Part shown: positions 17,785-32,540 of the stretch, piece by piece | How positions within the stretch are numbered: the stretch's first letter is position 1 | Layout of the letters: every line of letters begins with the position of its first letter | NCBI RefSeq assembly: GCF_024169245.1 | Contig: NZ_JALJWP010000001.1 | Location: forward strand, 1,675,501 to 1,739,500 | DNA length: 64,000 nt | Direction: 5' to 3' | Source of the DNA: Pseudomonas koreensis | Lineage (GTDB): Bacteria > Pseudomonadota > Gammaproteobacteria > Pseudomonadales > Pseudomonadaceae | The notes under the pieces: model-generated | What the model was told of the DNA's origin: nothing | Database searches by the model: none | The model's input: the letters and a program-made list of their open reading frames with translations, nothing else | Program-made: the position numbers and the translations under genes

Positions 17785-19149
17785 TCAGCCCAAGAGATCG
17801 CGCAGGACCTGGGTAAAGGCTAGGGCGCTGTCTTCTTCGCCAGAATGCCGTCCATCGCGCACCACCCACTGACCATTCACCAGCACATCGCGCACCTGCC
17901 GATCGCCGCCGGCGAACAACCAGCGATTGAGAATCCCGTCCCCCGACGCTGTCGCCAGATACGGATCGTTGCCATCGAGCACGATCCAGTCCGCGCGCTT
18001 GCCCACCTCCAGCGCACCGATCGGCTGCCCCAACGCCTGCGCGCCGCCGTCCAGCGCCGCGTCATACAGCGTGCGGCCGACCATCGGCTGATCCGCGCCA
18101 TACAAGCGATTGCGCCGCTGATCGCGCAGGCGCTGGCCATATTCCAGCCAGCGCAATTCTTCCACCACGCTCAGCGACACATGGCTGTCGGAGCCAATGC
18201 CCATGCGCCCGCCCTGGGCGAGAAAATCCACCGCCGGGAAAATCCCGTCGCCCAGATTGGCTTCAGTGGTCAGACACAGCCCGGCGATCGCGCGACTGTT
18301 GGCCATCAGCGTGACTTCCTCGGGATTCGCATGGGTCGCGTGGACCAGACACCAGCGCTGATCGACCTCGGTGTTTTCATACAGCCATTGCAACGGACGC
18401 CGCCCGCTCCAGCTCAGGCAGTCATCGACTTCTTTCTGCTGTTCGGCGATGTGGATATGTACCGGGCATTGTCTGTCGCTGGCAGCCAGCACTTCACTGA
18501 TCTGCTGTGGCGTGACCGCACGCAGCGAATGGAAACACAGCCCCAGCGATTGCGCCTTTTGCTGTGCCAGTAAGGGCTGCAGACGCGATTGCAGATTCAA
18601 ATAGTTTTCGGTGCTGTTGATAAATCGCCGCTGGCCATCGTTAGGCATCTGGCCACCGAAACCGGAATGGCTGTAGAGCACCGGCAGCAATGTCAGACCG
18701 ATTCCGCTTTCGCTCGCGGCCTGACTGATGCGCAAGGCCAGTTCGGCCGGATCGGCATACGGCTGGCCGTTGCTCTCGTGGTGCACGTAATGAAATTCGG
18801 CCACCGATGTGTACCCGGCCTTGAGCATTTCGATGTACAGCTGGCGGGCAATGATGCCGAGCTGGTCCGGGCTGATCTTTCCGACGAGGCGATACATCAG
18901 ATCGCGCCAGGTCCAGAAACTGTCGTTAGGATTGCCGGCCACTTCGGCCAATCCAGCCATCGCACGCTGGAAGGCATGGGAGTGCAGATTGGGCATCCCC
19001 GGCAGCAAAGGCCCGTTCAGCCGCTCGGCACCGTCTGCGGTGGAATCGGCCTGGATTCGGGTCAGCAGGCCATCGGCGCTGACCTCGAGACGTACATTGT
19101 TGGCCCATCCGTTAGGCAGCAGTGCGCGTTCGGCAAAGAAGGCGGACAT
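17785..19149 (-). CDS. hutF: Formimidoylglutamate deiminase
   Basis: HutF converts N-formimino-L-glutamate to N-formyl-L-glutamate and ammonia, the fourth step of the five-step histidine pathway. The protein has 454 residues from the ATG at 19149. An amidohydrolase barrel is indicated by the metal ligands in PNLHSHAFQRAM, the His of HIHIAEQQKEV, the His in LVHATHANPEEV and the Asp of IGSDSHVSL. Upstream in-frame codons run through the HutC operator and are rejected. The gene is divergent from hutC with 107 bases between them and an operator-like palindrome near its start. Confidence 0.96.
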   Translation of the reverse strand: MSAFFAERALLPNGWANNVRLEVSADGLLTRIQADSTADGAERLNGPLLPGMPNLHSHAFQRAMAGLAEVAGNPNDSFWTWRDLMYRLVGKISPDQLGIIARQLYIEMLKAGYTSVAEFHYVHHESNGQPYADPAELALRISQAASESGIGLTLLPVLYSHSGFGGQMPNDGQRRFINSTENYLNLQSRLQPLLAQQKAQSLGLCFHSLRAVTPQQISEVLAASDRQCPVHIHIAEQQKEVDDCLSWSGRRPLQWLYENTEVDQRWCLVHATHANPEEVTLMANSRAIAGLCLTTEANLGDGIFPAVDFLAQGGRMGIGSDSHVSLSVVEELRWLEYGQRLRDQRRNRLYGADQPMVGRTLYDAALDGGAQALGQPIGALEVGKRADWIVLDGNDPYLATASGDGILNRWLFAGGDRQVRDVLVNGQWVVRDGRHSGEEDSALAFTQVLRDLLG

Positions 19150-19175
19150 CGTTCGGCACCCCATCGTGTGTAATT

Positions 19176-19191
19176 TGTATATACATATACA
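19176..19191. promoter_or_regulatory. HutC operator-like palindrome between hutF and hutC
   Basis: TGTATATACATATACA contains a perfect 10-base palindrome TGTATATACA and a second, wider register with arms TGTATA and TATACA. It resembles the TGTA-TACA operators of HutC repressors and the element at 20875. It lies about 27 bases upstream of the hutF start and 66 bases upstream of hutC. Confidence 0.75.
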
Positions 19192-19212
19192 GACGTTTGC
19201 CTGCCCGGTAAA
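19184..19212 (-). promoter_or_regulatory. Possible sigma-70 promoter of hutF
   Basis: On the minus strand TTTACC and TATATG are separated by 17 bases. The -10 candidate lies inside the HutC operator-like palindrome, which would explain repression by occlusion. The boxes match the consensus only moderately. Confidence 0.35.
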
Positions 19213-19256
19213 CTCCGGCAAGCTAGTCACTTTCATCCAATGAACAGGGATCAACC

Positions 19257-20006
19257 GTGCCGACTCCGCCTCCAGTCTCTCCGTTGGCCGCGAACATGGG
19301 CGACAGTCCGGCGCCCTTGTACGCCCGCGTCAAACAGATGATCACCCAGCAGATCGACAGCGGTAACTGGCCGCCGCACTACCGCGTACCGTCCGAAAGC
19401 GAGCTGGTCAGCCAGCTCGGCTTCAGCCGCATGACCATCAACCGCGCCCTGCGCGAGATGACTGCTGACGGCCTGCTGGTGCGCATGCAAGGCGTCGGCA
19501 CCTTTGTCGCCGAACCGAAGAGCCAGTCCGCGCTGTTCGAAGTGCACAACATCGCCGACGAAATCGCCTCGCGCGGTCATCGCCACACCTGCCAGGTCAT
19601 CACCCTCGAAGAAGAGGCCGCCGGTTCCGAGCGCGCGCTGGCACTGGACATGCGCGAAGGGCAGAAAGTCTTCCACTCGCTGATCGTGCATTACGAAAAC
19701 GACATTCCGGTGCAAATCGAAGACCGTTTCGTCAACGCCCTGGTTGCCCCGGAATACCTCAAGCAGGATTTCACCCTGCAAACACCTTATGCCTATCTCA
19801 ACCAGGTCGCACCGCTGACCGAAGGCGAGCACGTGGTCGAAGCGATACTCGCCGAGCCTTCCGAATGCAAGTTGCTGCAGATCGAAAAGGGCGAGCCCTG
19901 CTTGTTGATTCGTCGGCGTACCTGGTCGGGGCGTCAGCCGGTGACGGCGGCGCGTTTGATTCATCCCGGTTCGCGTCATCGTCTGGAGGGTCGGTTTCAC
20001 AAATGA
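19257..20006 (+). CDS. hutC: Histidine utilisation repressor HutC (GntR family)
   Basis: This urocanate-responsive repressor of hut genes has 249 residues. The N-terminal winged helix-turn-helix covers about residues 20-85 (PLYARVKQMITQQIDSGNW, VPSESELVSQLGFSRMTINRA, LLVRMQGVGTFV). A C-terminal UTRA effector domain with HSLIVHYENDIPVQIEDRFVN follows. The GTG at 19257 has AGGG about eight bases upstream; an internal ATG at residue 13 is the alternative. The stop overlaps the hutD start by four bases (ATGA). Divergent orientation from hutF and the operators at 19176 and 20875 fit its role. Confidence 0.96.
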   Translation: MPTPPPVSPLAANMGDSPAPLYARVKQMITQQIDSGNWPPHYRVPSESELVSQLGFSRMTINRALREMTADGLLVRMQGVGTFVAEPKSQSALFEVHNIADEIASRGHRHTCQVITLEEEAAGSERALALDMREGQKVFHSLIVHYENDIPVQIEDRFVNALVAPEYLKQDFTLQTPYAYLNQVAPLTEGEHVVEAILAEPSECKLLQIEKGEPCLLIRRRTWSGRQPVTAARLIHPGSRHRLEGRFHK

Positions 20007-21019: not shown

Positions 21020-22708
21020 GTGACTGACAATACCCAGAACAGCAACAAGTTTCGTGACGTGCAGATTCGCGCCGCACGCGGTAACACGCTGACCGCCAAG
21101 AGCTGGCTGACCGAAGCGCCGCTGCGCATGTTGATGAACAATCTCGACCCGGAAGTCGCCGAGAACCCGAAAGAACTGGTGGTCTACGGTGGCATCGGCC
21201 GCGCCGCCCGGAACTGGGAGTGCTACGACAAAATCGTCGAGAGCCTGACCCACCTGAACGACGACGAAACCCTGCTGGTGCAATCGGGCAAGCCGGTCGG
21301 CGTGTTCAAGACTCATAGCAACGCGCCGCGCGTGCTCATCGCCAACTCCAACCTCGTGCCGCACTGGGCGAGCTGGGAGCACTTCAACGAACTCGACGCC
21401 AAGGGCCTGGCCATGTACGGCCAGATGACCGCTGGCAGCTGGATCTACATCGGCAGTCAGGGCATCGTTCAAGGCACCTACGAAACCTTCGTCGAAGCCG
21501 GTCGCCAGCATTACAACGCTGACCTCAAGGGTCGCTGGGTGCTGACCGCGGGCCTCGGTGGCATGGGCGGCGCGCAACCGCTGGCCGCCACCCTGGCCGG
21601 CGCCTGCTCGCTGAACATTGAATGCCAGCAGGTCAGCATCGATTTCCGCCTGAAAAGCCGTTACGTCGACGAGCAAGCCAAAGACCTCGACGACGCCTTG
21701 GCGCGCATCGAAAAATACACCAAGGAAGGCAAGGCAATCTCCATCGCGCTGCTCGGCAACGCGGCGGAAATCCTTCCGGTACTGGTCAAGCGTGGCGTGC
21801 GCCCGGACATGGTCACTGACCAGACCAGCGCCCACGACCCGCTCAACGGTTACCTGCCGGCCGGCTGGAGCTGGGACGAATACCGCGCCCGCGCCAAGAC
21901 CGAACCGGCTGCTGTGATCAAAGCCGCCAAGCAGTCGATGGCCGTGCACGTCAAAGCGATGCTGGAATTCCAGAAGCAAGGCATTCCGACCTTCGACTAC
22001 GGCAACAACATCCGGCAGATGGCCCAGGAAGAAGGCGTCGAAAATGCCTTCGATTTCCCGGGTTTCGTTCCGGCCTACATCCGTCCGCTGTTCTGCCGTG
22101 GCATCGGCCCGTTCCGTTGGGCGGCGCTGTCGGGTGATCCGCAGGACATCTACAAAACCGACGCCAAGGTCAAAGAGCTCATCCCGGACGACGCGCACCT
22201 GCACAACTGGCTGGACATGGCCCGTGAGCGCATCAGCTTCCAGGGTCTGCCGGCGCGTATCTGCTGGGTCGGCCTGGGCCTGCGCGCCAAGCTCGGTCTG
22301 GCCTTCAACGAAATGGTCCGTAGCGGTGAGCTGTCGGCACCGGTGGTGATCGGTCGCGACCACCTCGACTCCGGCTCGGTCGCCAGTCCCAACCGCGAAA
22401 CCGAATCGATGCAGGACGGTTCCGACGCCGTGTCCGACTGGCCACTGCTCAACGCGCTGCTGAACACTGCGAGCGGCGCGACCTGGGTATCGCTGCACCA
22501 TGGCGGCGGTGTCGGCATGGGCTTCTCGCAGCATTCGGGGATGGTGATTGTCTGCGACGGTACCGATGAGGCCGCAGAGCGCATCGCTCGCGTACTGCAC
22601 AACGACCCGGCCACCGGCGTCATGCGCCATGCGGATGCCGGTTACCAGATTGCGATCGACTGCGCGAAAGAGCAGGGGCTGAATCTGCCGATGATTACTG
22701 GCAAATAA
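21020..22708 (+). CDS. hutU: Urocanate hydratase (urocanase)
   Basis: Urocanase converts urocanate to imidazolonepropionate using tightly bound NAD+ as an electrophile. The GTG at 21020 follows GAGGAG by about nine bases and gives 562 residues. Signatures are [15 protein letters not shown], the NAD-binding [29 protein letters not shown] with the active-site Cys, and [17 protein letters not shown]. The 447 bases between hutD and this gene hold a REP doublet, a sigma-54 element and a HutC operator. Another REP doublet follows the stop. Confidence 0.98.
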
Positions 22709-22851: not shown

Positions 22852-24324
22852 ATGGCGGTTAACAACGAACGTGCAGGCAGTACTCCGTTGATCGAAAGGC
22901 GTTCGATCGACTACATCCCGGAAGCGGAAAGACACGGTCGTCTGTTCAGCCAGTTCACCCTGTGGATGGGCGCCAACCTGCAGATCACCGCCATCGTCAC
23001 CGGGGCCTTGGCTGTGGTGCTCGGCGGTGATGTGTTCTGGTCGTTGATCGGTCTGTTGATCGGTCAGTTGCTCGGCGGTGGCGTGATGGCGCTGCATGCC
23101 GCGCAAGGGCCGAAACTGGGCTTGCCGCAGATGATCTCAAGCCGTGTGCAATTCGGCGTTTATGGCGCGGCGATTCCGATCGTGCTGGTGTGCCTGATGT
23201 ACCTCGGCTTCACCGCCACCGGGACGGTGCTGTCCGGGCAGGCGCTGGGTCAGTTGTTCGGTGTCAGCGATAGCGTTGGCATCCTGATTTTCGCCAGTGT
23301 CATCGTGCTGGTCACGGTGCTCGGCTATCGGGTGATTCACTGGATCGGCCGCGTCGCCAGTGTCATTGGCGTGATCGCTTTCGTGTTTCTGTTCTGGCGG
23401 CTGATGAGCCAGACCGACGTCGGTGCACTCCTGCAAATCCGTCATTTCAGCTGGAGCAGCTTTCTCCTCGCGGTGTCGCTGGCCGCGTCCTGGCAGATCG
23501 CTTTCGGCCCGTATGTCGCGGACTACTCGCGCTACTTGCCGAGCGCTACTTCGTCGGTGAAAACCTTTTTCGCCGCTGGCGCAGGCTCGGTGATCGGCGC
23601 GCAGGTGGCGATGATCCTCGGCGTGTTTGCTGCCGCTTCGGCCAACGGTCAATTCGCAGGCCATGAAGTTGCCTACATCGTCGGCCTCGGCGGTACCGGC
23701 GCCACCGCCGCGCTGCTGTATTTCAGCATCGCGTTCGGCAAGGTGACCATTTCGACGCTGAACTCCTACGGCAGCTTCATGTGCATCGCGACCATCATCA
23801 GTGGCTTCAAAGGACACCTGACGGTGACCCGTATGCAGCGCCTGGTGTTCGTGCTGTTCATCGTCGGCGCGGCGACGCTGATTGCCCTGCTCGGCCAGCA
23901 CTCGTTCCTCGGTGCGTTCAAGTCGTTCATCCTGTTTCTGCTCGCCTTCTTCACCCCGTGGAGCGCGATCAATCTGGTCGACTACTACTGCATCACCCGC
24001 GAGCGCTACGACGTGCCGGCGCTGGCCGATCCGAACGGGCGCTACGGCCGCTGGAATCTGCTCGGCATCAGCGTCTATGTGTTCGGCGTACTGGTACAGC
24101 TGCCGTTCATCTCGACCAAGTTCTATACCGGGCCGTTGGTGGCGGCCCTGGGTGATGTGGACATTTCCTGGATCATCGGCCTGGTGCTGCCGGCCGCGGT
24201 CTATTACTTCTGCGCGAAAAAATGGCACAGCGCAGTGCCCGATCAGCTGATTCTGCCGGTCGAGCAGAACAGCGTCGTACAAGCAAAAACCAGCGGAACC
24301 GGTCGCGCTGCGGCGCAGGCCTGA
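22852..24324 (+). CDS. hutT: NCS1-family permease, probable urocanate transporter
   Basis: A 490-residue cytosine/purine/allantoin-type (NCS1) permease with about 12 membrane helices. The N-terminal cytosolic part runs to about residue 36, and helices 1-2 contain TLWMGANLQITAIVTGALAV. Further hallmarks are AIPIVLVCLMYLGFTATG, a helix with SWQIAFGPYVADYSRYLP, and FFTPWSAINLVDYYCITRERYD. An NCS1-type carrier in a Pseudomonas hut locus has been assigned to urocanate uptake (HutTu in P. fluorescens SBW25); the substrate here is inferred from that context. It starts 46 bases after a REP doublet, with AGAGGTTG as ribosome binding site. Confidence 0.82.
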   Translation: MAVNNERAGSTPLIERRSIDYIPEAERHGRLFSQFTLWMGANLQITAIVTGALAVVLGGDVFWSLIGLLIGQLLGGGVMALHAAQGPKLGLPQMISSRVQFGVYGAAIPIVLVCLMYLGFTATGTVLSGQALGQLFGVSDSVGILIFASVIVLVTVLGYRVIHWIGRVASVIGVIAFVFLFWRLMSQTDVGALLQIRHFSWSSFLLAVSLAASWQIAFGPYVADYSRYLPSATSSVKTFFAAGAGSVIGAQVAMILGVFAAASANGQFAGHEVAYIVGLGGTGATAALLYFSIAFGKVTISTLNSYGSFMCIATIISGFKGHLTVTRMQRLVFVLFIVGAATLIALLGQHSFLGAFKSFILFLLAFFTPWSAINLVDYYCITRERYDVPALADPNGRYGRWNLLGISVYVFGVLVQLPFISTKFYTGPLVAALGDVDISWIIGLVLPAAVYYFCAKKWHSAVPDQLILPVEQNSVVQAKTSGTGRAAAQA

Positions 24325-24395
24325 TCTGGACGTGGACCAGGCTGGATGCCTCTTGAACTGCCGTAAGCCCATTCATGATTAGGAGCGTCACGACA

Positions 24396-25364
24396 ATGAA
24401 ATCGAACAAGACCCTGCTGACCACATTGCTGTCCATGGGCCTGTTGGCCAGTGCCGGTGCGACCCAAGCCGTCGGCTGGTGCGAATCGGGCAAACCGGTG
24501 AAATTCGCCGGGCTGAACTGGGAAAGCGGCATGCTCCTGACCGACGTGCTGCAAGTGGTGCTGGAGAAAGGTTACGGCTGCAAGACCGACAGCCTGCCGG
24601 GCAATTCCATCACCATGGAAAACGCCCTGAGCAGCAACGATATTCAAGTGTTTGCCGAAGAGTGGGTCGGCCGCAGCGAGGTCTGGAACAAGGCCGAGAA
24701 GGCCGGCAAGGTCGTCGGTGTCGGTGCACCGGTGGTGGGCGCGGTCGAAGGCTGGTACGTGCCGCGTTACGTCATCGAAGGCGATGCCAAGCGCAAGCTG
24801 GAGCCGAAAGCCCCGGACCTGAAAAACATCGCCGACCTGGGTAAATACGCCGCCGTGTTCAAGGACGCCGAAGAGCCGTCCAAGGGCCGCTTCTATAACT
24901 GCCCGGCCGGCTGGACCTGCGAACTCGACAACAGCGAAATGCTCAAGAGCTACGGTCTGGAAAACAGCTACACCAACTTCCGCCCGGGCACCGGCCCTGC
25001 GCTGGATGCGGCAGTGCTGTCGAGCTACAAGCGGGGCGAGCCGATCCTCTTCTACTACTGGTCGCCGACCCCGCTGATGGGGCAGATCGATGCGGTCAAA
25101 CTCGAAGAGAAACCGGGAGTCGACAAGCGCGTGACCATCAAGGTCGGCCTGTCGAAAACCTTCCACGACGAAGCCCCGGAACTGGTCGCCGTGCTGGAGA
25201 AGGTCAACCTGCCGATCGACCTGCTCAACCAGAACCTCGGCCGCATGGCCAAGGAACGTATCGAGTCGGCAAAACTGGCGAAAATCTTCCTCAAGGAACA
25301 TCCTGAAGTCTGGCACGCATGGGTGAGCGACGACGCAGCCAAGAAAATCGACGCGGCCTTGTAG
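24396..25364 (+). CDS. hutX: ABC transporter substrate-binding protein HutX (OpuAC/ProX type)
   Basis: This 322-residue periplasmic binding protein has a Sec signal peptide (MKSNKTLLTTLLSMGLLASA, cleavage near ATQA). It belongs to the glycine betaine/proline OpuAC family: KFAGLNWESGMLLTDVLQVVLEKGYGC and AEEWVGRS near the ligand cleft, and FYYWSPTPLMG later. Its position before permease and ATPase genes in the hut locus supports histidine or a related imidazole as ligand, as proposed for HutX. AGGAG lies ten bases before the ATG at 24396; the frame is open seven codons further upstream without a better start. Confidence 0.88.
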   Translation: MKSNKTLLTTLLSMGLLASAGATQAVGWCESGKPVKFAGLNWESGMLLTDVLQVVLEKGYGCKTDSLPGNSITMENALSSNDIQVFAEEWVGRSEVWNKAEKAGKVVGVGAPVVGAVEGWYVPRYVIEGDAKRKLEPKAPDLKNIADLGKYAAVFKDAEEPSKGRFYNCPAGWTCELDNSEMLKSYGLENSYTNFRPGTGPALDAAVLSSYKRGEPILFYYWSPTPLMGQIDAVKLEEKPGVDKRVTIKVGLSKTFHDEAPELVAVLEKVNLPIDLLNQNLGRMAKERIESAKLAKIFLKEHPEVWHAWVSDDAAKKIDAAL

Positions 25365-25435: not shown

Positions 25436-26283
25436 ATGTTTCCCGAAAGCTTTACCTTTTCCATCGCCGACTGGGTCAACGGTTGGGTCGATTCGCTGGT
25501 GACCAATTACGGCGACGTGTTCCGCCACATCTCCGACACGCTGCTATGGGCCATCGTCAGCCTTGAAGGTCTGCTGCGTGCTGCGCCGTGGTGGCTGATG
25601 CTGGCGATCGTCGGTGTCATCGCCTGGCACGCCACGCGTAAGGTAGTCACCACCGCCGTGATTGTCGGCTTGTTGTTTCTGGTGGGCGCGGTCGGCCTCT
25701 GGGACAAGCTCATGCAGACCCTCGCGCTGATGATGGTCGCGACGATCATTTCGGTGCTGATCGGCATCCCGCTGGGGATCCTCTCGGCGCGCAGCAATCG
25801 TCTGCGTTCGGTGCTGATGCCGTTGCTCGACATCATGCAGACCATGCCGAGTTTCGTGTACCTGATTCCGGTGCTGATGCTGTTCGGCCTGGGCAAGGTG
25901 CCGGCGATTTTCGCCACGGTGATCTACGCCGCGCCACCGCTGATTCGCCTGACCGACCTGGGTATTCGCCAGGTCGATGGTGAAGTGATGGAAGCGATTA
26001 ATGCCTTCGGCGCCAACCGCTGGCAGCAACTGTTCGGCGTGCAATTGCCGCTGGCGTTGCCGAGCATCATGGCCGGGATCAACCAGACCACGATGATGGC
26101 CCTGTCGATGGTGGTCATCGCTTCGATGATCGGCGCCCGCGGCCTCGGTGAGGACGTGCTGGTGGGCATTCAGACCCTCAACGTCGGTCGCGGTCTGGAA
26201 GCCGGGCTGGCGATCGTGATTCTCGCTGTGGTCATCGACCGCATCACTCAAGCGTACGGTCGGCCACGCCACGAGGTGAGCAA

Positions 26284-26287
<4 letters not shown>
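25436..26287 (+). CDS. hutW: ABC transporter permease HutW
   Basis: The 283-residue inner-membrane permease is of the ProW/OpuAB type. About six to seven helices are seen; the transmembrane core includes [23 protein letters not shown] and the ATPase-coupling EAA loop reads [29 protein letters not shown]. It lies 71 bases after hutX and overlaps hutV by four bases (ATGA). It would form a homodimeric channel for the histidine-type substrate bound by HutX. Confidence 0.92.
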
Positions 26288-27114
<827 letters not shown>

Positions 27115-27247: not shown

Positions 27248-28771
27248 ATGTCCCAGGCTGAAAAAATCATCATCACCGGTGCGCCTCTGCGTTGGCAGGA
27301 CGTGGTCGCCGTTGCCCGTCACGGCGCGCCGCTGGAACTGTCCAGCGACACCTGGGCGCGCATCGACAACGCTCAGGCGATCGTCCAGCGCATCGTCGCC
27401 AGCGGCGAGCGCGCCTATGGCGTCAATACTGGTCTGGGCGGTCTGTCCAACGTCTCGCTGCAGGACGAACAGCTCAGCCAACTCTCGCGCAACACCTTGC
27501 TCAGCCATGCCTGCGGTGTCGGCCCGGTGCTCAGCGACGAGCAGACCCGCGCAATCATCTGCGCTGCGATCCACAACTACAGCCACGGCAAGTCCGGCCT
27601 GCATCGGCGTGTGGTCGAAGGGCTGCTGGCGCTGCTCAATCGCGGCATCACCCCGCAGGTGCCGTCGCAGGGTTCGGTGGGTTATCTGACGCACATGGCG
27701 CACATCGGCATCGCGTTGCTCGGGGTTGGCAATGTCAGTTATCGCGGGCAGATCATTTCGGCGCAACAGGCGCTGGCCGAACAGGGCCTGCAACCTGTGC
27801 AGCTCGGCGCGAAGGATGGCTTGTGTCTGGTCAACGGCACACCCTGCATGACCGGCCTCAGTTGCCTGGCGATTGCCGATGCTACGCGGCTGCTGCAATG
27901 GGCCGATGTCATTGGTGCGATGAGTTTCGAAGCCCAGCGCGGCCAGATCGATGCCTTCGATGCCGAGATCATTGCGCTCAAGCCGCATCCGGGCATGCAG
28001 CAGGTCGGCCAAAATCTGCGTGCATTACTCGATGGCAGCCAAGTGATCGCCGCAAGCAAAGGCATTCGCACTCAGGACGCGCTGAGCATCCGCTCGATCC
28101 CGCAGGTGCACGGCGCCGCGCGTGATCAACTGGAGCACGCAATAAAGCAGGTCGAAGCGGAGCTCAACGGCTGCACCGACAACCCGTTACTGCTCGGCAC
28201 ACCGGACAATTTCCGGGTGATGTCGCAGGCCAACCCGCACGGTCAATCCGTGGCGATGGCTGCGGATCTGCTGGCGATTGCCATGGCTGAAATCGGCTCG
28301 ATTGCCGAGCGCCGTCTGGACCGTTTGGTCAATCCGCACGTCAGCGGTCTGCCAGCGTTTCTGGTGGCCAACCCCGGGGTCAACTCGGGGATGATGATCG
28401 TGCAGTACGTCGCCGCTTCGCTGTGTGCGGAAAACCGCCAGTTGGGGCAACCGGCGGTACTCGACAACTACATCACCTCGGGCCTGCAGGAAGATCACCT
28501 GAGCATGGGCACCAACGCCGCGCTGAAGCTGCACCGCGCCCTGGAAAACTGCACACAGATCCTCGCGATTGAATATCTGCTGGCGGCGCAGGCGTTTGAA
28601 TTCCTCAAGGAACAGCGCTTTGGCGTGGGCACTGACCGCGCGTGGAAACTGCTGCGCGAAACGGTCCCCGCCTACGATCAGGATCGCTGGCTGGCGCCGG
28701 ACATCGCTGCCGCTGCAAGCGTCTTGAAAGACCCGAATCTGCCGCACAACGTTCTACCGGATTTGCACTGA
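27248..28771 (+). CDS. hutH1: HAL/PAL-family protein lacking the MIO triad (HutH1, probable pseudo-histidase)
   Basis: A 507-residue homologue of histidine ammonia-lyase. The frame is intact, and its length is close to HutH2. Retained family residues are Y57 (AYGVNTG), H87 (LSHACG), N196 (LVNGT), R282 and E415 (LQEDH). However, where histidases have [15 protein letters not shown], this protein reads GSVGYLTHMAHIG at 142-154. The Ala-Ser-Gly that cyclises to the MIO electrophile is deleted in frame. The active-site Tyr of QDPYSLR is L279 (QDALSIR), and the Phe of GNFH is P330 (ANPH). Normal MIO-dependent deamination is therefore not expected. It may be a structural or regulatory partner of HutH2, or bind a ligand. 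It lies between hutV and hutH2. Confidence 0.93.
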   Translation: MSQAEKIIITGAPLRWQDVVAVARHGAPLELSSDTWARIDNAQAIVQRIVASGERAYGVNTGLGGLSNVSLQDEQLSQLSRNTLLSHACGVGPVLSDEQTRAIICAAIHNYSHGKSGLHRRVVEGLLALLNRGITPQVPSQGSVGYLTHMAHIGIALLGVGNVSYRGQIISAQQALAEQGLQPVQLGAKDGLCLVNGTPCMTGLSCLAIADATRLLQWADVIGAMSFEAQRGQIDAFDAEIIALKPHPGMQQVGQNLRALLDGSQVIAASKGIRTQDALSIRSIPQVHGAARDQLEHAIKQVEAELNGCTDNPLLLGTPDNFRVMSQANPHGQSVAMAADLLAIAMAEIGSIAERRLDRLVNPHVSGLPAFLVANPGVNSGMMIVQYVAASLCAENRQLGQPAVLDNYITSGLQEDHLSMGTNAALKLHRALENCTQILAIEYLLAAQAFEFLKEQRFGVGTDRAWKLLRETVPAYDQDRWLAPDIAAAASVLKDPNLPHNVLPDLH

Positions 28772-28859: not shown

Positions 28860-28867
28860 AATAACAA
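28860..28867 (+). promoter_or_regulatory. Candidate Crc/Hfq (CA motif) site before hutH2
   Basis: AATAACAA matches the AANAANAA catabolite-repression motif recognised by Hfq with Crc in pseudomonads. It lies nine bases before the AGGAG of hutH2, where binding would block ribosome loading. Prediction from motif and position only. Confidence 0.5.
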
Positions 28868-28887
28868 TGCCTAACAGGAGCATTTTA

Positions 28888-30420
28888 ATGACTGCGCTGA
28901 ACCTGATCCCCGGCCAACTGAGCCTGGCCCAACTGCGTGAAGTCTACCAGCATCCCGTCACGTTGACCCTCGACAACAGCGCCAGCGCGCAGATCGAGGC
29001 CAGCGTCGCCTGCGTCGAACAAATTCTTGCGGAGAACCGCACCGCCTACGGCATCAACACCGGTTTCGGCCTGCTGGCCTCGACGCGCATCGCCAGCGAA
29101 GACCTGGAGAACCTGCAGCGTTCGCTGGTGCTCTCGCACGCGGCCGGCGTCGGCCAGCCGATCAGCGATGACCTTGTGCGACTGATCATGGTGCTCAAGG
29201 TCAACAGCCTCAGCCGCGGTTTCTCCGGGATCCGTCGGCAGGTGATCGATGCGCTGATTGCGCTGGTCAATGCCGAGGTCTATCCGCACATTCCGCTGAA
29301 AGGTTCGGTCGGTGCGTCGGGCGATCTGGCGCCGTTGGCGCACATGTCGCTGGTGCTGCTGGGCGAGGGCAAGGCGCGCTACAAGGGCGAATGGCTTGAT
29401 GCCACTCAAGCACTGAAAGTCGCCGGCCTGACGCCGCTGACTTTAGCGGCTAAAGAAGGTCTGGCGCTGCTCAACGGTACTCAGGTTTCCACAGCGTTTG
29501 CGCTGCGTGGTTTGTTCGAAGGCGAAGACCTGTTCGCCGGTGCCTTGGCGCTGGGCAGTCTCACCGTAGAAGCCGTGCTCGGTTCGCGCTCGCCGTTCGA
29601 CGCGCGCATTCATGCCGCGCGTGGGCAGAGAGGACAGATCGATGCCGCTGCGGCCTACCGCGATCTGCTCGGTGAGCGCAGCGAAGTCTCTGCCTCGCAC
29701 CAGAACTGCGACAAGGTCCAGGATCCGTATTCGCTGCGCTGCCAGCCGCAAGTCATGGGCGCCTGCCTGACCCAGTTCCGGCAGGCCGCTGAAGTGCTGG
29801 CGGTGGAAGCCAACGCGGTGTCGGATAATCCGCTGGTATTCGCCACTGAAGGCGATGTGATTTCCGGCGGCAACTTTCACGCCGAACCGGTGGCCATGGC
29901 CGCTGACAATCTGGCTCTGGCCATCGCCGAAATCGGCTCGCTGAGCGAACGGCGCATCTCGCTGATGATGGACAAGCACATGTCGCAACTGCCGCCGTTC
30001 CTCGTCGCCAATGGCGGGGTGAACTCCGGTTTCATGATCGCCCAGGTCACCGCGGCGGCACTGGCCAGCGAGAACAAGGCCCTGGCCCATCCGCATTCGG
30101 TGGACAGCCTGCCGACTTCGGCTAACCAAGAGGACCACGTTTCCATGGCGCCCGCTGCGGGCAAGCGTCTGTGGGAAATGGCTGAAAACACTCGCGGGAT
30201 TCTTGCGGTGGAATGGCTGGCGGCGGCGCAGGGCCTGGATCTGCGCAACGGCCTGAAGACCTCGCCGAAGCTGGAACAGGCGCGGGCGATCCTGCGCAGG
30301 GAAGTGCCGTTTTATGAGAAGGACCGGTTTTTTGCGCCGGATATCAATGCGGCGACTGAATTGCTGGCTTCGCGGTGTTTGACCGAGCTGGTTTCGGTGA
30401 AGCTTTTGCCGAGCCTGTGA
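28888..30420 (+). CDS. hutH2: Histidine ammonia-lyase (catalytic histidase)
   Basis: HutH deaminates L-histidine to urocanate, the first pathway step. The ATG at 28888 has AGGAG seven bases upstream and gives 510 residues, the same as P. putida HutH. The MIO triad is intact in [15 protein letters not shown] (A143-S144-G145). The other active-site residues are also present: Y54, H84, N196 (LLNGT), Y281 and R284 (QDPYSLR), F330 (GGNFH) and E415 (NQEDH). Thus this copy, not its upstream paralogue, supplies the activity. A REP doublet follows before hutI. Confidence 0.98.
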
Positions 30421-30520: not shown

Positions 30521-31726
30521 ATGAAAACCCTCTGGCAACACTGCCACGTCGCAACCATGGCCAACGGCGCCTATTCGATCATCGAGGATGCCGCGATCGT
30601 GACGTCCGGCACGCTGATCGAGTGGATCGGCCCGCGCACTCAACTGCCGTCCGGCGAATACCCGGCGGTCAATGACCTGCAAGGTGCGTGGGTCACGCCC
30701 GGGCTGATCGACTGTCACACCCACACCGTGTTCGGCGGCAACCGCAGCGGCGAGTTCGAGCAGCGTCTGCAAGGCGTCAGCTACGCCGAGATCGCCGCGC
30801 AGGGCGGGGGCATCGCCAGCACCGTGCGCGCCACGCGCGAAGCCACTGAAGACGAGCTGTTCGCCAGCGCCGCCAAGCGCTTGAAAAGCCTGATGCGCGA
30901 CGGCGTGACCACGGTGGAAATGAAATCCGGCTACGGCCTCGATCTGGCCAACGAGCGCAAGCTTCTGCGGGTCATCCGGCGCCTGGCCGAAGAACTGCCG
31001 ATCAGCGTACGCAGCACTTGCCTGGCGGCGCACGCGTTGCCGCCGGAGTACAAGGATCGCGCCGACGATTACATCGATCTGGTCTGCAGCGAGATGCTCC
31101 CGGCCCTCGCTGCTGAAGGTCTGGTGGATGCCGTGGATGCGTTCTGCGAATACCTGGCGTTCTCGCCGGAGCAGGTCGAGCGGGTGTTCGTTGCCGCGCA
31201 ACAACTCGGTCTACCGGTAAAACTGCACGCCGAACAATTGTCTTCGCTGCACGGCTCGAGCCTTGCCGCGCGCTATAAAGCCTTGTCCGCCGATCATCTG
31301 GAATTCATGGACGAGGACGACGCCATCGCCATGGCTGCATCCGACACTGTCGCGGTGCTGCTGCCGGGCGCGTTCTATTTTCTGCGTGAAACTCAATTAC
31401 CGCCAATGGATGCACTGCGCAAACACAAGGTGAAGATCGCCATCGCCAGTGACCTCAACCCCGGCACCTCGCCGGCGCTGTCGTTGCGCCTGATGTTGAA
31501 CATGGCCTGCACCTGTTTTCGCATGACTCCGGAAGAAGCCCTGGCCGGGGCAACCCTTCATGCCGCGCAGGCATTGGGCATGGCTGACACCCGCGGCTCG
31601 CTGGAGGTCGGCAAGGTCGCCGACTTTGTCGCATGGGACATCGAGCGTCCGGCGGATCTGGCCTATTGGCTCGGGGGCGATCTGGACAAGCGCGTCGTGC
31701 GTCACGGCGTTGAATCGAATTTCTAG
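30521..31726 (+). CDS. hutI: Imidazolonepropionase
   Basis: HutI hydrolyses 4-imidazolone-5-propionate to N-formiminoglutamate. The protein has 401 residues of the amidohydrolase superfamily. Metal ligands are in [28 protein letters not shown] carries the substrate-loop Tyr; KLHAEQLSS and [12 protein letters not shown] hold further His ligands, and [11 protein letters not shown] the Asp. GACGAGG lies upstream of the ATG. hutG starts 11 bases after the stop. Confidence 0.98.
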
Positions 31727-31736
31727 GAGGGCGGTT

Positions 31737-32540
31737 GTGAATAAGGTTCTGAATTTCAAACAAGGCCGCGTGCCGCTGCTGATCAGCATGCCCCACGCCG
31801 GCGTGCGTCTGACCCCGGCGGTCGAAGCCGGGTTGATCCCCGCCGCGAAGAGTTTGCCGGACACCGACTGGCATATCCCGCAGCTCTACGATTTTGCCGA
31901 GGAACTGGGCGCCAGCACCCTGGCTGCCGAGTATTCGCGTTTCGTCATCGACCTCAACCGGCCGTCCGACGACAAGCCGTTGTATGCCGGGGCGACCACC
32001 GGTTTATATCCGGCGACCTTGTTCGACGGCATTGCGTTGTTCCGCGAAGGGCATGAGCCTTCGAGAGAAGAACGTGCAACTTACCTGGAGCAGGTCTGGA
32101 CGCCGTACCATCGCACGCTGCAGGAAGAGCTGGCGCGATTGAAAGCCGAATTCGGCTACGCGCTGCTGTTCGACGCGCACTCGATCCGCTCGATCATCCC
32201 GCACCTGTTCGACGGCAAACTGCCGGATTTCAATCTCGGCACGTTCAATGGCGCCAGTTGTGATCCGCAACTCGCTACGCAGCTGGAAACGATCTGCGCG
32301 CGGCACGAGCAGTTCACTCATGTGCTCAACGGTCGCTTCAAGGGCGGGCACATCACCCGCCAGTACGGCGACCCGGCGCAGAACATCCACGCGGTGCAGT
32401 TGGAATTGTGCCAGTCCACCTACATGGAAGAGTTCGAACCGTTCCGCTACCGCGCCGACCTGGCCGAACCGACGCGGGTGGTGCTCCGGGAATTGCTGCA
32501 GGGACTGCTCGCTTGGGGTGAAAAACATTACTGCAAATAA
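31737..32540 (+). CDS. hutG: N-formylglutamate deformylase
   Basis: HutG releases formate from N-formyl-L-glutamate to give glutamate, completing the pathway opened by HutF. The GTG at 31737 has AGGAGGG six bases upstream and gives 267 residues, starting with the family-like VNKVLNFKQGRVPLLISMPHAGV. FVIDLNRPSDD, LLFDAHSIRS and LNGRFKGGHITRQYGDP are characteristic of the zinc-dependent FGase family. hutI and hutG are clearly co-transcribed. A REP doublet follows. Confidence 0.96.
   Translation: MNKVLNFKQGRVPLLISMPHAGVRLTPAVEAGLIPAAKSLPDTDWHIPQLYDFAEELGASTLAAEYSRFVIDLNRPSDDKPLYAGATTGLYPATLFDGIALFREGHEPSREERATYLEQVWTPYHRTLQEELARLKAEFGYALLFDAHSIRSIIPHLFDGKLPDFNLGTFNGASCDPQLATQLETICARHEQFTHVLNGRFKGGHITRQYGDPAQNIHAVQLELCQSTYMEEFEPFRYRADLAEPTRVVLRELLQGLLAWGEKHYCK

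Follow-up and report, generated by a model that had tools for sequence, protein, structure and literature searches.

Why does the histidine utilization (hut) locus of Pseudomonas koreensis contain, next to a canonical histidine ammonia-lyase (HAL), a second HAL-family protein that lacks the Ala-Ser-Gly triad from which the electrophilic methylidene-imidazolone (MIO) group is made? This question is raised by the gene hutH1, which adjoins hutH2 in a 64,000-nucleotide stretch of contig NZ_JALJWP010000001.1 (assembly GCF_024169245.1, positions 1,675,501 to 1,739,500), here called the window. Our analysis suggests, with a probability of roughly two in three, that HutH1 is a MIO-independent trimethylamine-lyase for hercynine (histidine betaine), which would work in the manner of ergothionase but belongs to a separate clade. 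The proposals made here on substrate, products, mechanism, and transporter specificity draw on the active site and the gene neighborhood.

Absence of the MIO triad and conservation of HutH1

The hutH1 gene is an open reading frame with an ATG start encoding 507 amino acids. In a Pfam search, its product matched the profile PF00221 (Lyase_aromatic) with 554.6 bits over the whole profile, and both this match and the fold place it in the aromatic amino acid lyase superfamily. In an alignment with HutH2 (40% identity), GSVGY---LTHMAHI of HutH1 stands opposite GSVGASGDL of HutH2, resulting in a net difference of three residues. A previous sequence-only reading of this DNA had stated that exactly Ala-Ser-Gly was removed. 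The triad is indeed gone, but "exactly" was slightly over-read, as the gap can equally be written as a loss of ASG with an exchange of Asp for Tyr or as a loss of SGD with an exchange of Ala for Tyr, and the residues following the gap are also changed. We set aside the idea that the residues at the gap form a different autocatalytic ring, because MIO-like cyclization requires a Gly at the position after Gly-Tyr where HutH1 has a Leu. An AlphaFold model of HutH1 had a mean predicted local distance difference test (pLDDT) score of 71, with values below 50 in the active-site loops, and because of this low confidence the active-site geometry was not taken from the model. When the model was used for a Foldseek search, HALs were the best matches and ergothionase appeared at rank 15.

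All 80 named Pseudomonas loci encode the motif GSVGYLTHMAH, each in an open frame no shorter than 507 codons; the motif was also present in all 26 loci of the P. koreensis genome and its relatives. All 123 distinct full-length HutH1-type proteins read GS[V/A]GYLTH[M/N]AH, and thus none of them has the MIO-forming triad of HutH (EC 4.3.1.3). Stop codons within hutH1 were not found across 107 loci. The ratio of nonsynonymous to synonymous substitution rates (dN/dS), calculated against the window copy with our own script (Nei-Gojobori method with Jukes-Cantor correction), had a median of 0.081 for HutH1 (range, 0.038 to 0.200; 111 sequences, 1 undefined) and of 0.056 for HutH2 (range, 0.037 to 0.171; 73 sequences, 1 undefined). 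The identical motif in the 80 named loci rules out a sequencing or assembly error as the source of the gap, and the open frames together with the low dN/dS ratio rule out a pseudogene. The expectations that the frame is maintained and that orthologues consistently lack the triad were therefore borne out, and decayed orthologous frames were not encountered in the named loci. Judged from these sequences, the loss of the triad is fixed and ancient and not a chance event.

The sequence-only reading had also mentioned that one of the two hutH genes of Pseudomonas fluorescens SBW25 is dispensable for growth on histidine; according to PMC8871633, this gene is hutH1. Dispensability would fit a decaying duplicate of hutH2, but this explanation is hardly credible in view of the low dN/dS ratio, the lack of stop codons, and the occurrence of one motif across three classes of proteobacteria. 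A recent duplication of hutH2 was ruled out by the low identity of the two proteins and by the separate clade formed by HutH1 in the phylogeny described below.

The HutH1 type spans gamma-, beta-, and alphaproteobacteria. A tblastn search of plasmids yielded 896 records matching HutH1, and six loci picked among the 40 matches listed (L126 to L131, from Erwinia, Burkholderia, and Rhizobium/Sinorhizobium) were examined; in all six the triad is absent in the same way as in the window protein. In our samples, the exact motif pattern occurred in 2 of 369 genomes of the class, 13 of 398 genomes of the phylum, and 6 of 101 genomes of a family designated f24, where the pattern misses the rhizobial form by design and the class and phylum counts include the genome of the window.

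Active-site residues and relationship to ergothionase

Besides the triad, the active site of HutH1 differs from that of HAL at two positions, which we take to be Tyr280 and Phe329 in HAL numbering. The window protein has Leu279 and Pro330 there and retains Y57, S86, H87, N196, Q276, R282, and E415; both exchanges, as well as the retention of five of these residues (Y57, H87, N196, R282, and E415), had been read correctly from the sequence alone. Among 224 distinct full-length HAL-family proteins, position 280 is occupied by Tyr in all 95 proteins with an ASG triad and by Leu in all 123 HutH1-type and all 5 ergothionase-like proteins. The one remaining triad-less protein, of a type with the motif GYLAV (L143), has Tyr280, as does its relative L201. 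In the 27 HutH1 rows of the alignment, Leu280 was invariant and position 329 was occupied by Pro (22 rows) or Ala (5 rows), so that Tyr280 and Phe329 of HutH were both absent; HAL positions Y53, S82, H83, N195, Q277, R283, Q413, and E414 were unchanged in all 27. HutH1 thus shares with the HAL of Pseudomonas putida (PDB 1b8f; 39 to 40% identity) the fold and the Ser-His, Asn, Gln, Arg, Glu, and Tyr53 residues, but not the triad, Tyr280, or Phe329. As the contact residues are conserved in every row, HutH1 should still hold the imidazole and the carboxylate of its substrate, with new room at the former Tyr280. In P. putida HAL, exchange of the MIO serine (Ser143) for Ala caused a more than 1000-fold loss of activity (PMC3903478), and HutH1 should therefore be a poor histidase, which makes plain histidine an unlikely substrate.

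Ergothionase of Treponema denticola (PDB 6s7j/6s7q) is likewise a HAL homologue without MIO (PMC13405746). In our alignment, its sequence (6s7j) reads SSIGEGD and QDPLSFR; like HutH1, it has Leu at position 280, keeps Arg283 and Glu414, and has trimethylamine as the presumed leaving group. HutH1 shows these ergothionase-like traits, and both proteins are associated with betaine-type importers, which would be compatible with HutH1 being itself an ergothionase that releases trimethylamine from ergothioneine with formation of thiourocanate. In a 56-row tree, however, the 27 HutH1 rows formed one clade (support 100/99) and the five ergothionase-like rows formed another, the clade of the T. denticola enzyme (100/100). 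The ergothionase-like proteins also have a shorter triad gap (SIGEGD in T. denticola compared to SVGYLTH) and differ from HutH1 at HAL His83 (changed in 4 of 5 rows), Asn195 (5 of 5), position 413 (5 of 5), and Phe329. Three genomes (G009, G710, and G822) carry both kinds, suggesting different substrates, ergothioneine in one case and sulfur-free hercynine in the case of HutH1. Moreover, HutH1 is located with hut genes, whereas ergothionase-like genes were found beside a gene for a putative sulfate exporter, as expected if the latter enzymes take a sulfur compound and HutH1 a sulfur-free one. These differences make an ergothionase function of HutH1 quite improbable.

Ergothionase-like proteins are encoded at L139:4510-6045 (minus strand), L144:8433-9848, and L178 and L179:6938-8443, with the motifs GSLGAAD, GSLGESD, or GSIGAAD and QDPLS[YF]R; those of L178 and L179 are annotated as histidine ammonia-lyase. 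On two Rhizobium plasmids the ergothionase-like gene lies between hutC and a gene for a glycine-betaine substrate-binding protein, with the sulfate exporter gene upstream, and these rhizobial loci also contain CoA-transferase, short-chain dehydrogenase/reductase, and MaoC genes. Such a cluster is a candidate operon for ergothioneine degradation. In G710 and G009, the ergothionase-like genes adjoin genes for OpuAC-type or HutX-like substrate-binding proteins.

Whether the triad was lost once or twice was addressed in two trees. The 56-row tree joined the HutH1 and ergothionase clades with a support of 57/15 and grouped them with the GYLAV protein at 43/30. In a second tree, which included a Priestia plasmid protein and a deltaproteobacterial one, the types with a three-residue gap fell together (89/90) and were separated from the ergothionase type, whose gap is shorter, and the MIO types were grouped at 86/76. 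This second tree leans toward two separate losses of MIO but is no proof: a single triad-less origin of the HutH1 and ergothionase clades was neither shown nor rejected by tree tests, and a clade of HutH1 and the Priestia protein was not rejected either (P value of 0.432 in the approximately unbiased test).

The Priestia protein (Priestia aryabhattai plasmid NZ_CP041518.1, L200:5983-7521) is annotated as histidine ammonia-lyase, reads GSLGYLNHQAH and QDALSIR, and is encoded in a plasmid hutU-hutI cluster; a MIO-less HutH1-like enzyme thus seems to be present in Bacillota, too. The GYLAV type (GSVGYLAVEGH) is encoded at L143:8677-10215 (minus strand) in the Pseudomonas genome G006 and at L201:5986-7560, and its Tyr280 is part of the motifs QDAYSLR and QDPYVLR. 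Its gene is accompanied by a HisJ-type ATP-binding cassette (ABC) importer in G006 and preceded by a sodium:solute symporter gene in L201. Possibly, this type acts on a third MIO-less substrate.

Transporter genes and the proposed function

In 78 of the 80 named Pseudomonas loci, hutV immediately precedes hutH1; the other two loci are cut off there. Among 36 Pseudomonas genomes (the window's own and 35 relatives), a hutX orthologue of at least 77% identity was present in 25 of 26 genomes with HutH1 and in 0 of 10 without it (Fisher's exact test, P = 4e-8, relatedness ignored). As 6 of these 10 HutH1-less genomes contain a canonical-HutH-like match, hutX tracks HutH1 and not HutH2. Paralogues of hutX with 50 to 61% identity are more widely spread, and three sit in HutH1-less genomes. 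The closest PDB relative of HutX is a glycine betaine/proline-binding protein (7yle, 93.5 bits). In G025 (L132), a LysR gene and hutXWV-hutH1 form a stand-alone module away from the hut genes, and in five of six loci of family f24 a gene for a betaine/carnitine/choline transporter (BCCT) lies between hutU and hutH1.

A match to HutH2 of at least 60% was found in 14 of 15 HutH1-containing genomes tested, with G710 as the exception. Among the six f24 genomes, canonical HutH was found in none of G710, G802, and G836; their HAL-family proteins are HutH1 and a MIO-type protein of the GASGDLTPLSYV kind, which we take to be of the aryl-polyene kind, plus an ergothionase-like protein in G710. All three genomes retain hutU, hutF, and hutI, and hutG was seen in two. 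If these operons work, the product of HutH1 must enter the pathway at urocanate, and HutH1 would supply urocanate from some compound in these bacteria.

These genomes also bear on the proposal that HutH1 has no catalytic activity of its own but acts as a sensor or assists HutH2, as one of its subunits or as its regulator. HAL active sites are built by three subunits, and hutH2 is the neighbor of hutH1 in the window as well as in 78 of the 80 named loci (again with two cut off there), which would suit such a role. The occurrence of HutH1 without canonical HutH in G710, G802, and G836 and the separate module in G025 speak against it, as does the conservation of the active-site contacts in all 27 rows, for which an inactive subunit would have no use; we consider this explanation very unlikely. 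Of the three roles offered by the sequence-only reading, a new non-MIO activity therefore fits best, whereas a mixed HutH1-HutH2 tetramer and an allosteric sensor are disfavored by the same genomes and by the importers that accompany HutH1 in other classes. That reading had not connected the new activity with the betaine-type transporter encoded upstream or with ergothionase as a known MIO-less homologue.

We propose that HutH1 takes hercynine (N-alpha-trimethyl-histidine), expels trimethylamine, and yields urocanate, which would pass to HutU, HutI, HutF, and HutG. MIO serves to make ammonia, which on its own leaves poorly, a good leaving group. A quaternary trimethylammonium group leaves readily as it is and lacks the lone pair needed for an attack on MIO, so the triad would be useless and in the way. 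The small hydrophobic Leu in place of Tyr280 could give room for the methyl groups, and Ser86-His87, Glu415, Asn196, Gln276, Arg282, and Tyr57 would continue to bind the imidazole and the carboxylate and to provide the base. Import of the betaine would be mediated by HutXWV or, in other bacteria, by the BCCT protein or a HisJ-type ABC importer.

An alternative is that the main substrate of HutH1 is not hercynine but a different imidazole compound or N-alpha-substituted histidine, such as dimethyl-histidine, that carries a good leaving group. The gene solA (N-methyl amino acid oxidase), which follows hutH1 in two of three rhizobial loci, points to nonquaternary N-methylated amino acids, and amino-acid-type importers beside HutH1 in several classes could be read in the same way. 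We also count the position of solA in favor of the hercynine proposal. OpuAC and BCCT transporters, on the other hand, point to quaternary ammonium compounds, and in an enzyme that lacks MIO dimethylamine leaves less readily. We regard this alternative as unlikely.

Several observations weigh against the assignment of HutH1 as a hercynine lyase. The NCBIfam equivalog model TIGR01225 (hutH) accepts HutH1, with 541.4 bits at a cut-off of 539.15 (HutH2, 729.9 bits). A hutX orthologue is missing from G023, a genome that contains HutH1 together with hutW and hutV; the sixth f24 locus (L198, G822) has HutH1 without BCCT, and the f24 BCCT proteins do not reach the cut-off of any NCBIfam model. An ABC importer of the HisJ/amino-acid type, not of the betaine family, accompanies HutH1 in Erwinia, Burkholderia, rhizobia, G582, and G758, including all six plasmid loci examined. 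G710, G802, and G836 belong to one genus, are drafts of 30 to 160 contigs, and still contain a MIO-type HAL. As the GYLAV proteins lack the triad but have Tyr280, loss of the triad does not always go along with Leu280, and related loci are not independent samples. Finally, HutXWV of SBW25 is reported to contribute to the uptake of histidine (PMC8871633).

In SBW25, hutTu, hutXWV, and hutH1 are inserted between hutU and hutH in the same gene order as in the window, and HutTu is a urocanate transporter; no other function of HutH1 is given in the accessible portion of that source (PMC8871633). The ergothioneine-specific domain of EgtU forms an aromatic cage for the trimethylammonium group of a histidine betaine but rejects hercynine (PMC9732360); the family to which HutX was matched is OpuAC. 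Soil cyanobacteria are described as producers of histidine betaine (PMC3826126), and histidine betaine was depleted in biocrust, though no isolate tested used it (PMC4595634). Among the literature matches listed, with subscription papers mostly outside, neither a hercynine lyase nor another role of HutH1 was found, and we do not claim its absence from print; regarding MIO-less enzymes, only an engineered phenylalanine ammonia-lyase mutant was relevant among the matches listed.

If HutH1 is a hercynine lyase, a gene annotated as histidase encodes a different enzyme with another substrate and another product gas, although curated models still accept it, and the retention of a second "histidase" not needed for histidine would be explained. 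It would also be a candidate consumer for the histidine betaine vanishing from soil crust, a question posed in PMC4595634, and a second natural elimination on the HAL fold without MIO, helpful for asking what MIO does. With less confidence, though still inclined toward it, we suggest that a betaine importer (HutXWV, BCCT, or a HisJ-type ABC system) and MIO-independent HutH1, which is routinely annotated as histidase, constitute in numerous pseudomonads and in further bacteria an unrecognized second entry branch of the hut pathway that has fully replaced histidase in one genus, that soil and plant bacteria use histidine betaine from cyanobacteria or other sources by this branch and release trimethylamine, and that the three-residue-gap types (HutH1, the Bacillota plasmid form, and the GYLAV form) lost MIO apart from ergothionase.

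The hut locus of the window and further HAL genes

The features of the locus are listed in Table 1. The true start of hutG is probably near position 31731. A local scan around hutH1 gave no promoter-like site and one terminator-like site inside the gene, numbers at or under chance.

Table 1. Genes of the hut locus and hutH1 codons discussed in the text (window positions)
Feature	Position	Strand	Description and basis
hutF-like formimidoylglutamate deiminase	17785..19254	-	Place and sequence resemble annotated hutF
hutC repressor	19257..20006	+	Open reading frame, homology
hutU urocanase	21020..22708	+	Open reading frame; named by homology and operon order; would take the proposed product urocanate
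hutTu, cytosine/purine-permease-type transporter	22852..24324	+	PF02133
hutX, OpuAC-type (glycine-betaine family) substrate-binding protein	24375..25364	+	PF04069, 206 bits; proposed binder of the HutH1 substrate
hutW, ABC permease	25436..26287	+	Best NCBIfam model is a choline transporter permease, below its cut-off
hutV, ABC ATPase	26284..27114	+	Directly upstream of hutH1, 133-bp gap
hutH1, HAL-family protein without MIO triad	27248..28771	+	Open frame, PF00221, clade of triad-less proteins; proposed hercynine (histidine betaine) trimethylamine-lyase
GSVGYLTH codons	27671..27694	+	Site of GSVGASGDL in canonical HutH
Leu279 codon	28082..28084	+	At HAL Tyr280 position
Pro330 codon	28235..28237	+	At HAL Phe329 position
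hutH2, canonical histidase	28867..30420	+	GSVGASGD, QDPYSLR; comparison protein
hutI imidazolonepropionase	30521..31726	+	Open reading frame, homology
hutG	31560..32540	+	Listed frame begins within hutI; alignment with homologues starts near residue 58

In one related genome (G034, C1:1367745-1369165), the hutH2 gene beside an intact hutH1 is apparently present in two open frames (matches to residues 25 to 314 and 323 to 495); this split could be an assembly slip. Besides HutH1 and HutH2, the genome of the window itself (5.97 Mb, one contig) encodes one further HAL-family protein, at C1:1778756-1780123 (minus strand; L003), which brings the total to three. This third protein has an intact GASGD motif and is located near acyltransferase- and thioesterase-like open reading frames; we take it to be the HAL/TAL protein of an aryl-polyene cluster.
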